Positions 16,364 through 42,222 of a stretch of DNA of 64,000 nucleotides are shown in pieces. The position numbers and the translations under genes are program-made. The stretch is from Dinoroseobacter shibae DFL 12 = DSM 16493. Its GTDB lineage: Bacteria; Pseudomonadota; Alphaproteobacteria; Rhodobacterales; Rhodobacteraceae. The stretch covers positions 2,108,001 to 2,172,000 of the forward strand of contig NC_009952.1 in the NCBI RefSeq assembly GCF_000018145.1, written 5' to 3'. Numbering within the stretch: the stretch's first letter is position 1; each line of letters begins with the position of its first letter. Under the pieces are notes generated by a model. It did not search any database. It saw nothing but the letters and a program-made list of their open reading frames with translations, and was not told the origin of the DNA.

Positions 16364-16954
16364 ATGCGCGGGCTTGCGGCCTGGGCGGCCGTGGGGCTGG
16401 GGATCGCGGTGCCGGTGGTTTTGGCCGCGGGCAGTCCCCTTCTGGCCTGGCGGGAGCCGGTCTATATCGCGGCGGGGTTCGCGGGAATTTTCGCGCTTGG
16501 CCGGATGTTGCTGCAACCGCTGCTGGCGGCGGGGCTGCTGCCCTTGGTGCCGAGGGCGCTGGGGCGGCGGGTGCATGTCTGGACCGGCAGCGCGCTGGTG
16601 GCGCTGGTACTGCTGCATGTGGGCGGCCTTTGGATCACCAGCCCGCCCGACGTTGTGGATGCGCTGCTTCTGGTGTCGCCCACGCCGTTCTCTGCCTGGG
16701 GTGTCGTGGCGATGTGGGCGGTGTTCGGGGCGGCAGGGCTGGCGGTGCTGCCGCGCCGGATGGGGCCGCGGGTCTGGCGCAGGGCCCATACGGCGGCGGT
16801 GGTGCTGGCCGTGATTGGCACAGCGGTGCATGCGGTGCAGATCGAGGGCGTGATGGAGCCGGTGACACGTGCGCTGCTCTGCGCGGGGGTGCTGGGGGCG
16901 ACCGGCTGGGCGGTCTGGACACTGCGGGCCTGGGCGCCGCGACGACGGGCGTGA
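16364..16954 (+). CDS. Ferric-reductase-like transmembrane haem protein
   Basis: 196 residues with about six hydrophobic helices and little soluble sequence. Candidate haem ligands are His in RRVHVWTGSALVALVLLHVGG near residue 70 (two His about 14 apart) and RRAHTAAVVLAVIGTAVHA near 145 (again two His 14 apart), the layout of ferric-reductase-like membrane domains (Fre, MsrQ, YedZ). It would pass electrons across the inner membrane. It starts four bases after the Tat-exported protein, suggesting that the latter is its periplasmic partner. Substrate unknown. Confidence 0.7.
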   Translation: MRGLAAWAAVGLGIAVPVVLAAGSPLLAWREPVYIAAGFAGIFALGRMLLQPLLAAGLLPLVPRALGRRVHVWTGSALVALVLLHVGGLWITSPPDVVDALLLVSPTPFSAWGVVAMWAVFGAAGLAVLPRRMGPRVWRRAHTAAVVLAVIGTAVHAVQIEGVMEPVTRALLCAGVLGATGWAVWTLRAWAPRRRA

Positions 16955-28215: not shown

Positions 28216-29217
28216 ATGGCGACGCTGACGCTGGACAATGTCAAGAAATCCTTCGGCAAGACCGATGTGATCCACGGGGTGAGCATCGATGTGACCGAAG
28301 GCGAGTTCATCGTGATCGTGGGGCCGTCGGGCTGCGGCAAGTCCACCTTGTTGCGCATGGTCGCAGGCCTGGAAACCGTGAGTTCGGGGGAGGTGCGGAT
28401 CGATGGGCGGGTGGTCAACACGCTGGAGCCGATGGACCGCGACATCGCGATGGTGTTCCAGAACTACGCGCTGTACCCACATATGTCGGTCTTCGACAAC
28501 ATGGCCTACGGGCTGAAGATCGCGAAGGTGCCCAAGGCGGAGATCGCCGACCGGGTGGCGGTGGCCGCCAAGCTCTTGCAGTTGGAGCCGTACCTGGGTC
28601 GCAAGCCCAAGGAGTTGTCGGGCGGGCAGCGGCAGCGGGTCGCCATGGGGCGCGCGATCGTGCGCAAGCCCGCGGTCTTTCTGTTCGACGAGCCCTTGTC
28701 CAACCTGGATGCGAAACTGCGGGTGCAGATGCGGCTGGAGATCAAGGCGCTGCAGCGGGAGCTGGGGGTCACGTCGCTCTATGTCACCCACGACCAGGTG
28801 GAGGCGATGACGCTGGCCGACCGGATGATCGTGATGAACGGCGGCGTGGCCGATCAGATCGGTGCGCCGCTGGAAGTTTACGCCAACCCCCAGACGGCCT
28901 TCGTGGCGGGGTTCATCGGCTCGCCGCCGACGAATTTCCTGCCTGCCGACATGGTCCGCGCAGGGCCGGCAGGTCAACAGGTCGGCATCCGGCCAGAGCA
29001 TCTGCGCGTGGCCCCCCAGGGGCGGCTGGAAGCGCATGTCGCCTATGCCGAGGCCTTGGGGGCGGAGACGCTGCTGCATCTGCGCGCGTCCCAAGGCACG
29101 ACCCTGACCGTGCGCCAGGACGCCGCGGCGCCCATGCCGGCGGAGGGCGCGACCGTGCAACTGGACTGGGACGACAGCGACACGATGCTGTTTGCGGACA
29201 ATGGCAGGCGGGTCTGA
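28216..29217 (+). CDS. ugpC: Glycerol-3-phosphate-type ABC transporter ATPase UgpC
   Basis: 333 residues. ATPase domain with Walker [13 protein letters not shown] near residue 36, signature [15 protein letters not shown] near 134, Walker [19 protein letters not shown] near 155 and switch [14 protein letters not shown] near 190. The last 90 residues are the OB-fold regulatory domain of MalK/UgpC proteins ([14 protein letters not shown] near 258). It couples ATP hydrolysis to UgpAE. ATG follows the ugpE TAG directly. It ends with tandem stop codons TGA TAG. Confidence 0.92.
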
Positions 29218-29368
29218 TAGCCGGCCCTTCCCCTTTGCCAAGAAGGCGGTGCAGGCCAGCGACCGCCCCGGCCGTTGCGGCGCGGGGGGGATAGGCGTTC
29301 GGTGAGATTGCGAAATCTTCAGCTCTTTGAGGTCCTTATGGACGCTGGTTTCTCATGGAGACAATGCA

Positions 29369-29632
29369 ATGATTGACGTTTACAAGAACCGGCAACCCGG
29401 CATGACCAGCCCTGCCGTTGCAGCCGAAATTATCATTCCCGCGAATGGCCGGGAACTGAACTACGCGACGCGCGCGGTCTATGTCGGCAGCGGCGGAGAT
29501 CTGTCCATGGAGCTGCTGAACGGCGACGTGGTCACGTTCAAGAACCTGGCATCCGGAACGCTTCTTCCGGTGCGAGCACGGCGGGTGCGCAACAGCGATA
29601 CGACCGCAAGTGATCTGATCGGGCTGCGGTGA
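29369..29632 (+). CDS. Small protein like a gene-transfer-agent head-spike base protein
   Basis: 87 residues from ATG 29369 (MIDVYKNRQPGMTSPA); an earlier in-frame ATG at 29327 lacks a ribosome site. The pattern of an N-terminal SPA segment, then NYATRAVYVGSGGDLSMEL, GDVVTFKNLASGTLLPVRA and the end DLIGLR matches, from memory, the RCAP_rcc01079 spike-base family. In Rhodobacter capsulatus that protein (GhsA) forms the base of the fibres on gene-transfer-agent heads. It stands alone between a transporter operon and a convergent glutamate-synthase-like gene, with no other phage-like gene in the window. A prophage remnant or an orphan domain of other use is also possible. Confidence 0.65.
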   Translation: MIDVYKNRQPGMTSPAVAAEIIIPANGRELNYATRAVYVGSGGDLSMELLNGDVVTFKNLASGTLLPVRARRVRNSDTTASDLIGLR

Positions 29633-29639
29633 GCCCTGC

Positions 29640-29670
29640 GGCACCGCAGACCACACCGGGCTGCGGTGCC
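29640..29670. terminator. Bidirectional terminator hairpin
   Basis: GGCACCGCAG at 29640-29649 pairs perfectly with CTGCGGTGCC at 29661-29670 around an 11-base loop. It lies seven bases after the spike-like gene and in the 82-bp gap to the convergent glutamate-synthase-like gene. There is no T-run on either side, so its effect on transcription is inferred. Confidence 0.6.
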
Positions 29671-29714
29671 ACCGCCATGGGACGCGCAAGCGGGCCCGTG
29701 GCGGGCGATCGGGC

Positions 29715-31322
29715 TCAGGTGCCCTTGACCATGTCGGCGGGTGAGAAGTCATTTGCATCGGCGCGGCGCCAACGGCGCAGGTAGCCGAAGGCGTCTTCCT
29801 CCCCGCGCAGCAGGAAGCCTTCGGGCAGGTAGGGGTACACCTCGTCCCCGGTGACCATGCCGCGGTCGGTCTCGCGCACCATCAGGTGATAGGGCAGGAA
29901 GTCGCCGGGGCTTTCCAGCCCGGCCGCACCGGTCATCTCGCCCAGTGCCTTGAGCGTGTTGCGATGGAATCGCGCAACCCGCACGGATTTGTCTGCGACA
30001 TCCAGCGCCCGCTGGCGCAGCGGGTCCTGGGTCGCGACGCCCACCGGGCAGGCATTGGTGTGGCAGGCCTGGGCCTGGATGCAGCCGATGGAGAACATGA
30101 AGCCGCGGGCGGAATTGGCCCAGTCCGCGCCCAGTGCCAGCACCTTGGCCATGTCGAAGGCCGTGACGATCTTGCCCGAGGCACCGATCTTGATCCGATC
30201 ACGGACCCCAGCACCACGCAGGGTGTTGTGGGCGAAAGTCAGCCCCTCGACCAGCGGCATGCCCATGCGGTTGGCGAATTCCAGCGGCGCGGCACCGGTG
30301 CCGCCCTCTTTCCCGTCGATGACGATGAAGTCGGGGGTGATGTCGGTCTCCAGCATCGCCTTGACCATGCACATGAATTCGCGCCGGTGGCCGATGCACA
30401 TCTTGAAACCCACGGGCTTGCCGTCCGACAATTCGCGCAGTTTGCCAATGAATTCCATCATCTCGATCGGGGTGGAAAACGCGCTGTGGGAGGCGGGTGA
30501 GACGCAGTCCTCGCCCATGGGCACGCCGCGCGCCTCGGCGATCTCGGGCGTGATCTTCGAGGCCGGCAGCACCCCGCCATGACCGGGCTTGGCGCCCTGG
30601 GACAGCTTCAGCTCGATCAGCTTGATCTGCGGGTTGGCGGCGGTTTCGCGGAATTTCTCGGGGTCGAACACGCCCTCCGGGGTGCGGCAGCCGAAATAGC
30701 CCGAGCCCACCTGGTAGATCAGGTCACCGCCGCCTTCGCGGTGGTGGATGCTGACCCCGCCCTCGCCAGTGTCATGGGCAAAGCCGCCTGCCTTCGCGCC
30801 CTTGTTGAGCGCCTGGATCGCATTGCCCGAGAGCGCCCCGAAGCTCATCGCCGAGATGTTGTAGATCGAGGCGTCATAGGGTTGGGTGCAGTCCGGCCCG
30901 CCGATGCGGACGCGGAAATCGGTGTCCGCGATATGCACCGGGCGGACCGAGTGGGTCAGCCACTGGTAGCCCGAATCGTAGACCCGCATCCGGGTGCCGA
31001 AGGGGCGCTTGTCCTCGACGCCCTTGGCGCGCTGGTAGATGATCGAGCGCATGTCGCGGGAGAACGGCTCCTCGTCCTGGTCGCTTTCGATCAGGTATTG
31101 CCGGATCTCGGGGCGGATGCCTTCGAACAGGAAGCGCATATGCCCGATCACCGGGTAATTGCGCAGGATCGAGTGCCGCGACTGGATCACGTCATAGAGG
31201 CCCAGAAGGGACAGCCCCCCGAAGAAGGCCACCGGGATCCAGAACCAGACGCTCCATGCAACAGCGACCAGCGACGCGAGGGTCAGCACGGTGACAGCGA
31301 GGAAAATCGAATAACGCGACAT
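29715..31322 (-). CDS. FMN-binding glutamate-synthase-like membrane protein
   Basis: 535 residues from ATG 31322, chosen over ATG 31349 because GGAG stands seven bases before it. Two hydrophobic segments (IFLAVTVLTLASLVAVAW and VAFFGGLSLLGLYDV) anchor the N-terminus. The rest is the FMN barrel of the GltB large-subunit core: NISAMSFGALSGNAIQALNKG near residue 160, VIDGKEGGTGAAP near 335 and the 3Fe-4S cysteines CIQAQACHTNACPVG (C-x5-C-x4-C) near 430. It lacks the glutaminase domain, so ammonia or another partner must supply nitrogen, or the reaction differs. This family is widespread and poorly characterised. Not in an operon. Confidence 0.85.
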   Translation of the reverse strand: MSRYSIFLAVTVLTLASLVAVAWSVWFWIPVAFFGGLSLLGLYDVIQSRHSILRNYPVIGHMRFLFEGIRPEIRQYLIESDQDEEPFSRDMRSIIYQRAKGVEDKRPFGTRMRVYDSGYQWLTHSVRPVHIADTDFRVRIGGPDCTQPYDASIYNISAMSFGALSGNAIQALNKGAKAGGFAHDTGEGGVSIHHREGGGDLIYQVGSGYFGCRTPEGVFDPEKFRETAANPQIKLIELKLSQGAKPGHGGVLPASKITPEIAEARGVPMGEDCVSPASHSAFSTPIEMMEFIGKLRELSDGKPVGFKMCIGHRREFMCMVKAMLETDITPDFIVIDGKEGGTGAAPLEFANRMGMPLVEGLTFAHNTLRGAGVRDRIKIGASGKIVTAFDMAKVLALGADWANSARGFMFSIGCIQAQACHTNACPVGVATQDPLRQRALDVADKSVRVARFHRNTLKALGEMTGAAGLESPGDFLPYHLMVRETDRGMVTGDEVYPYLPEGFLLRGEEDAFGYLRRWRRADANDFSPADMVKGT

Positions 31323-31423
31323 GGGCGGGCTCCAAACCTCCGTCAGCATGGGCTGACGGTCCTTGAGAAACCCTAAACACCGATGCTCGGCTCTGTGAAC
31401 CGGCTAAATCGACGGGGGCGGGC

Positions 31424-41163: not shown

Positions 41164-42222
41164 TCAAGTCCCGGACACGGGTCCGAGAGAAGCCCGCGAG
41201 ATGATCTGCGTCTCCAGAAGCAGCGGCACCGGAGGGGCACCGCCGGAGAGCAACGTGGCAAGGACGCGGGCCGCCTCGATCCCCATCTGGCGGTGCGGGA
41301 CATGGACCGTGGTCAGGCCCGGCGTCACGATGCCGGCGATCTCGATATCGTCGAACCCGGTGATCGACAGGTCCCCGGGCACCGACAGCCCGGCGGCGCG
41401 GGCCGCCCCCATGGCGCCCACGGCCAGAACGTCATTACCGCACATCACCGCCGTGGGCTGACGCGGCCCTGCGAGGATCTCTGCCATGACCCGCGCGCCA
41501 TTCTCGATCGAGTAGGGTGTCTGGACCAAGGTGAGGGCGTCCCGATCCAGCCCGACCTCGGCAGCCGCGTCCCAGATGCCCAGCACCCGCTCCCGCGCCC
41601 GGTCGTTGCTGTCCATCGGGGCCGCGATGATCGCCACATCCCGGTGACCCAGCCCGAAGACCTGCCGCGCCAGCGCCCGCATCGCCGCGCGGTTGTCGAA
41701 GCCGATGGCATGGTGGTCGCTGCCCGCGCTATAGGCCCAGGCGATGACGTAAGGTACGCCGCGCTGCTGCAACAGCTCGTAAGCCCGCGCCGAACGCTCG
41801 AACCCGATCAGCAGCAGCGCATCCGCCCCGCGCGCCAGCAACGTGCGGATCTGTTCCTCCTCCAGCTTGGGACTGTAGGAGGACGACGCCACGAGAAGGG
41901 TCAGCCCGTGGCGGGCCAATTCTTCCTGAAAGGCCTGCAGGCCCCGTGCGAAGATCGCGTTTTCCATGGTGGGAATGATCGCGCCGATGGTATTGGTGCG
42001 TTTCGCCGCCAGCGCCCGTGCCCCGAAGTTGGGCGCATAGCCAAGCTCCTGCACCACGGCCAGCACGCGCTCCCGGGTCTGCTCGACCACCAGTTCCGGC
42101 GAGTTCAGGCAGCGCGACACGGTCGCCGTGGACACGCCCGCCGCCTGCGCCACGTCCTGGAGGGTCGGCGAGGGGGTGGCGGGTTTGCGTGCCACGCGCC
42201 TGTTTGTCGTCCTGTCGACCAT
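41164..42222 (-). CDS. LacI-family repressor of the DHPS locus
   Basis: 352 residues from ATG 42222 with TAGGAG four bases upstream. The helix-turn-helix PTLQDVAQAAGVSTATVSRCL near residue 20 and hinge NFGARALAAKRTNTIGAIIP near 65 are standard, and the sensor domain has IAAPMDSNDRARERVLGIWDA near 185 and DDIEIAGIVTPGLTTVHVPH near 290. It is divergent from the TRAP-hps-suy operon. Two ATGTAA...TTACAT-type operators lie between them. It most likely represses that operon until DHPS, sulfolactate or another intermediate binds. Confidence 0.85.
   Translation of the reverse strand: MVDRTTNRRVARKPATPSPTLQDVAQAAGVSTATVSRCLNSPELVVEQTRERVLAVVQELGYAPNFGARALAAKRTNTIGAIIPTMENAIFARGLQAFQEELARHGLTLLVASSSYSPKLEEEQIRTLLARGADALLLIGFERSARAYELLQQRGVPYVIAWAYSAGSDHHAIGFDNRAAMRALARQVFGLGHRDVAIIAAPMDSNDRARERVLGIWDAAAEVGLDRDALTLVQTPYSIENGARVMAEILAGPRQPTAVMCGNDVLAVGAMGAARAAGLSVPGDLSITGFDDIEIAGIVTPGLTTVHVPHRQMGIEAARVLATLLSGGAPPVPLLLETQIISRASLGPVSGT

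Follow-up and report, generated by a model that had tools for sequence, protein, structure and literature searches.

A divergent head-spike base family gene outside the main gene transfer agent cluster of Dinoroseobacter shibae

The 87-residue protein analyzed here truly belongs to the head-spike base family, of which it is a divergent representative. We assign a probability of about 0.6 to the reading that this gene provides the pentameric head-spike base of D. shibae's own gene transfer agent (GTA), as a divergent component relocated away from the main GTA cluster. A more interesting lead than the D. shibae gene itself is that its relatives are associated with polysaccharide loci.

Results

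The analyzed stretch of DNA (the window, 64,000 nucleotides) corresponds to C1:2,108,001-2,172,000 of a genome of six contigs and 4,417,868 bases, with the spike-base gene at C1:2,137,369. The gene and its surroundings, in window coordinates, are as follows:

28216..29217, + strand: upstream ABC transporter ATPase, UgpC/MalK-like (ABC_tran and TOBE_2, Pfam)
29218..29368, + strand: upstream gap of 151 bp, without a sigma-70-like promoter match, a CtrA-like site or the GTA-cluster promoter motif
29357..29361, + strand: Shine-Dalgarno-like GGAGA, 7 nt 5' of the ATG (direct sequence reading)
29369..29632, + strand: CDS, head-spike base (RCAP_Rcc01079/GhsA family), 87 aa (ORF, profile, PDB, fold)
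29633..29714, no strand: gap of 82 bp before the converging gene, too small for a fibre (ghsB) gene
29715..31349, - strand: converging gene of a glutamate-synthase-domain protein (Pfam)

The frame read from the sequence is intact, with the ATG at 29369 and the end of the stop codon at 29632. The ATPase gene upstream is the final one of a sugar-type ABC transporter operon starting at about 25086. Pfam identified the seven flanking proteins as two solute-binding proteins, two permeases, the ABC ATPase, the glutamate-synthase-domain protein and a phosphoglucomutase, the genes of the last two lying on the downstream side; for these seven, the statement of the initial annotation that the gene has no phage or GTA neighbours is true. 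A search with a library of polysaccharide proteins revealed no polysaccharide genes within 10 kb of the spike base, only cross-matches to ABC ATPases. The GC3 of the gene was 0.716 versus 0.87-0.89 in three neighbouring ugp-like genes, which fits either a foreign origin or a weak/relaxed constraint.

The product had been described from its sequence as an 87-residue protein with the RCAP_rcc01079 (GhsA) pattern, and the profile search bore this out. The NCBIfam profile NF048002.1 ('spike base protein, RCAP_Rcc01079 family'), with a cut-off of 28 bits, matched residues 3-86 with 93.4 bits (E 7.6e-27), the match covering profile positions 1-84 of 85. PHROG 12296 ('tail fiber protein') was matched with E 7.6e-17, and the Pfam search of the protein gave no match. 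Comparison with the PDB by phmmer yielded just two matches below E 1: 6tb9, through its Rcc01079 head-spike base chain (E 5.4e-6), and 8cjz, through its spike base (E 2e-4).

The AlphaFold2 model of the protein, built from a 44-row alignment in which 43 relatives' loci accompanied the window protein, reached a pLDDT of 93.7. Its top PDB match was 6tb9_A1, the head-spike base of the R. capsulatus GTA (RcGTA), with Foldseek TM scores of 0.88/0.91, and VIA-align superposed the model on 6tb9 with Z 13.9 and rmsd 1.3 Å over 84 aligned residues at 34% identity. The spike base of phage Carin1 (8cjz, Z 11.3) was second, and the next among the matches listed had Z 4.4. By sequence the protein belongs to the Rcc01079 family, and its model shows the jelly-roll of 6tb9 together with the extended N-terminal arm. 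In the R. capsulatus base, Glu12 is described as helping to bind a cation at the capsid contact (PMC7296036). The phmmer alignment placed Thr13 of the D. shibae protein at this site; the acidic residue was not counted as family-defining because the position varies in the family (T in 21, S in 9, D in 3 and E in 1 of the 44 rows).

Members of the family also occur in 79 phage records and 63 viral-contig loci, and a Dinoroseobacter phage is among the sources of viral proteins predicted to have this fold. Together with the capsid spike of Carin1 (8cjz), these occurrences would agree with a phage or prophage gene unrelated to the GTA. Such an origin is nevertheless very unlikely in our view: the seven flanking proteins include no phage proteins, and the best phage records reached 37-43% and the best viral contig 45%, versus 49% identity for the relative from Pseudoruegeria, found on a bacterial chromosomal contig among neighbours that are not phage genes.

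The initial annotation had proposed an unlinked structural gene of the D. shibae GTA. The proposal is partly supported. Family, fold and the absence of linkage to the GTA cluster are borne out, the TIM domain of the GTA megatron (GTA_TIM) lying at C1:2,294,093, about 157 kb from the spike-base gene at C1:2,137,369; a role in the particle is plausible. The main GTA cluster contains GTA_TIM, a tail-fibre DUF2793 gene, terminase, g1 and the capsid protein, and the major capsid protein of D. shibae aligns to that of RcGTA over residues 21-405. A profile search of the whole genome detected no second spike-base copy above the NF048002 cut-off, and therefore the genome holds no competing spike base. 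One candidate at about 41366-41575 of the window (16 bits, two internal stops) was dismissed as noise, sub-threshold matches of this search having appeared in five of 14 control genomes as well. We also observed that the DUF2793 tail-fibre gene of D. shibae directly follows the megatron gene (C1:2.290-2.310 Mb), unlike R. capsulatus rcc00171, which is placed outside the GTA cluster (PMC8601537).

A transcriptome paper names Dshi_2018 and Dshi_2162, as homologues of tail-fibre genes in R. capsulatus, among the QS-induced GTA genes (PMC6473078), and the D. shibae GTA cluster has been given as Dshi_2162-2178 (PMC4046655). The genome contains one DUF2793 gene above the cut-off, at 2.292 Mb, and since this sole gene comes right after the megatron gene, where the Dshi_2162-2178 cluster ends, it is most simply Dshi_2162. 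Counting 144 genes back from Dshi_2162 at about 1.07 kb each leads to the spike-base gene, and the genome has no other member of either family; hence, by position and elimination, the spike-base gene is very probably Dshi_2018. Six locus tags from its neighbourhood did not turn up in the literature text that was searched. If the two are the same gene, the published QS induction lends indirect support to a role in the GTA, and the gene has probably been noticed in print already, under a vaguer name.

Among 248 genomes of the bacterium's family, the spike base was present in 80 and the GTA marker in 215. The marker was found in 77 of the 80 spike-base genomes (all but G114, G141 and G240) versus 138 of the 168 genomes without a spike base (Fisher P 0.002, phylogeny ignored). 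Because most GTA-bearing genomes (138 of 215) have no recognizable spike base, this protein is either an optional part or too diverged for recognition. A second genome of the genus (G035), the only other one covered, had GTA_TIM and no spike base, and its synteny gave no clear ortholog of either flanking gene (best identities 60% and 39%).

The ghsAB genes of R. capsulatus are described as late, driven by CtrA with GafA (PMC9638019). A conserved promoter of the Rhodobacterales GTA clusters, CTTGACTT-n-CG-n-ACGGTC followed after four bases by GTATACC, was matched at at least 19 of 29 positions in 15 of 20 loci (D. shibae and 19 of 20 relatives, the relative L273 having no terminase match), and 14 of these 15 sites lay 375-406 bp before the terminase. 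The motif is a candidate GafA target, although we infer the link to GafA. It was seen, as CTTGACTTnCGnACGGTC n4 GTATACC, 5' of the small-terminase gene at about 16520-16560 on the minus strand of L171 and in L257-L276.

None of 100 spike upstream regions, D. shibae included, reached a score of 10 for this motif. The best score upstream of the D. shibae spike gene was -4.0 versus 28.7-46.6 at the 15 motif sites, a gap that is overstated because the matrix had been built from these 15 sites. The 151-bp upstream gap of D. shibae contained no CtrA-like site and no TTAA anywhere. CtrA half-sites were detected at most 160 bp upstream of 10 of 34 spike genes versus 8.4% of 463 other genes, an enrichment that is weak evidence because the control takes in genes inside operons. 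The initial annotation had pointed to the CtrA regulon and to co-expression with the main cluster as places to look for a GTA connection; at the level of sequence, the outcome was negative. The missing GTA-cluster motif and CtrA-like site argue against tight co-regulation with the GTA genes.

The weakly resolved tree of 118 proteins (87 columns) grouped the D. shibae protein with that of Pseudoruegeria SK021 (L042; 95/75) and then with those of Fluviibacterium (L045) and a MAG (L102; 84/81). The branch of the D. shibae protein was long (0.78), which fits a foreign origin or relaxed constraint. In L042, L045 and L102 the spike base has exopolysaccharide genes (Wzz, CpsD, sugar transferase) on one side and sohB on the other. 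In D. shibae, sohB lies at 0.639 Mb, followed by the same genes (CaCA antiporter, SDR and UvrC, named by eye), and the Wzz/CpsD locus lies at 3.566 Mb; neither locus contains a spike gene. The simplest account is that the D. shibae gene moved from the kind of locus occupied by its relatives.

The head spike of R. capsulatus is reported to consist of an Rcc01079 pentamer, whose N-termini bind the capsid pentamers, and one Rcc01080 fibre, anchored in the base pentamer via its repeated Ile/Leu-Gly N-terminus (PMC7296036). In many relatives an ORF that begins in this way (MIGFSLGL, MLGLSLGL, MRLGLTLGLG etc.) came after the spike base, often with a 1-4-base overlap. No fibre (ghsB) ORF follows the spike base on the + strand in D. 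shibae, where the 82-bp gap and the converging gene leave no room for it. A genome-wide search with a strict N-terminus pattern, by which variant motifs are missed, gave 29 matches versus 13 with the reversed one, and none of them starts a plausible fibre. On inspection, each of the 29 lay within another gene, looked membrane-like or was very short. Phages searched with a short fibre query returned nothing relevant. The D. shibae spike base is unusual in lacking both a recognized fibre gene and polysaccharide genes nearby.

A fibre gene within 160 bp was missing from all four members of the closest tree group (D. shibae, L042, L045 and L102), and many other spike bases ending in ALW/AMW likewise had no obvious fibre. 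Such copies may mean that in this lineage a fibre-free base covers the five-fold vertices, either as a capsid stabilizer or as a direct sugar-binding knob, which would be a sub-case of the GTA head-spike base reading. Against this, a fibre could be encoded elsewhere: fibre C-termini are diverse, only a short N-terminal motif is common among fibres, and the downstream-ORF test is heuristic. We regard a base-only spike as less likely than not.

The fibreless state also bears on another explanation, in which the gene is a decaying or idle leftover: it arrived in an exopolysaccharide/spike cassette, rearrangement then stripped it of its fibre and regulatory context, and it has ceased to serve in particles. 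The absence of polysaccharide genes within 10 kb and of a GTA or CtrA-like promoter element, the long branch, the low GC3 and the sohB (0.639 Mb) and Wzz/CpsD (3.566 Mb) loci devoid of a spike gene are all in line with this. However, the frame is intact and preceded by a good Shine-Dalgarno sequence, the 93.4-bit match extends over nearly the whole profile, the fold is confident, and a QS response has been published for Dshi_2018 (PMC6473078), if this is indeed the spike-base gene. We consider an idle leftover unlikely and retain the reading of a GTA head-spike base.

Polysaccharide genes were a recurrent feature of the loci of the relatives. Capsule or exopolysaccharide genes lay near the spike gene, in stretches reaching at most 10 kb to either side, in 14 of the 15 plasmid regions sampled from 28 matching records (L003-L006 and L202-L211 among the plasmid loci), the sole plasmid without them being pORIO5. 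Since plasmids of such a kind may be rich in polysaccharide genes, chromosomes were tested with 20 spike-centred regions of 20 kb (L212-L231), picked for long contigs only. A library of 56 polysaccharide proteins gave a match in 16 of these 20 regions versus one of 20 control regions, the latter placed at round-number positions of long contigs in ten of these genomes rather than drawn at random. KpsT was dropped because it cross-reacts with any ABC ATPase; without it the counts were 15/20 and 0/20 (Fisher P about 8e-7), the five chromosomal regions left without a match being L215, L217, L223, L225 and L231. The plasmid spike loci and L042 were not counted with this library because it was built from them, and two of the three polysaccharide matches of L042 were its own library entries. 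In the set of 66 named loci, several of them on short contigs, 26 had polysaccharide matches, and the Rhizobiaceae loci had none. A separate Rhizobiaceae-type set from Rhizobium, Ciceribacter and Agrobacterium (L046, L049-L051, L053, L054, L057, L058, L060, L062, L064, L065 and L071) carried spike bases without a recognized downstream fibre and without polysaccharide matches.

The spike-base genes of the Rhodobacterales relatives are mostly situated in exopolysaccharide/capsule clusters. In R. capsulatus, whose capsule serves as the receptor for the particle, spike-base and capsule genes have been reported side by side, and the present pattern generalizes this adjacency; the spike base of D. 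shibae is an exception to it. No statement of an order-wide linkage between spike bases and polysaccharide genes was found in the open-access literature searched.

The location of the relatives could also mean that they handle polysaccharides directly, and the D. shibae protein might accordingly be a repurposed cell-surface or polysaccharide protein acting outside any particle. We hold this for the least probable explanation, given that the D. shibae copy is not in a polysaccharide cluster, no signal peptide was seen by eye, the fold and the N-terminal arm match the capsid-bound form, and the R. capsulatus precedent is a part of the particle.

Discussion

If the gene supplies the head-spike base of the D. 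shibae GTA, as we prefer to think, then by comparison with R. capsulatus every free five-fold vertex of the capsid would carry five copies, anchored through the N-terminal arms, and the pentamer would turn a central socket outward. Judging from the genomic context, the gene may have been carried or moved from an exopolysaccharide locus, the home of its nearest relatives, to its site behind the sugar-transporter operon. Because no fibre gene lies beside the spike base, the D. shibae spike would be a bare knob, or its fibre would be encoded elsewhere.

The distribution of the relatives raised a broader, tentative hypothesis, to which we give somewhat less than even odds. Rhodobacterales spike genes may travel together with the genes of the surface polysaccharide that the spike grips, as a lock-and-key cassette on chromosomes and exopolysaccharide plasmids, so that the acquisition of a new coat also re-targets the cell's own GTA; the D. 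shibae gene would be an escaped, fibreless member. Alternatively, polysaccharide loci are insertion hot spots.

With the spike base, the list of likely parts would be complete for a second model GTA, and the base would be a part that can stand alone. The recipients of GTA DNA depend on the capsule, and if spikes are inherited with capsule genes, plasmids included, one transfer event can change the circle of GTA partners. Such co-inheritance would bear on why selection keeps GTAs.

Of the systems compared, the L042, L045 and L102 spike bases are the nearest relatives of the D. shibae copy in the tree and are fibreless as well; they differ in lying between Wzz/CpsD/sugar-transferase genes and sohB, whereas the D. 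shibae copy is elsewhere. The spike base of phage Carin1 (8cjz) shares the fold (Z 11.3) and is likewise the base of a capsid spike, but it is a phage component with only 22% identity and rmsd 3.5 Å in the structural alignment. As regards RcGTA Rcc01079 (GhsA, 6tb9), the R. capsulatus gene is reported to precede the fibre gene rcc01080 and to lie beside the capsule genes rcc01081-01086 (PMC10218006, PMC9638019), whereas the D. shibae copy has no fibre gene, no polysaccharide neighbours and Thr in place of Glu12. The two have in common their length, sequence similarity over the full length, the jelly-roll fold, the N-terminal arm and the position of the gene outside the main GTA cluster.
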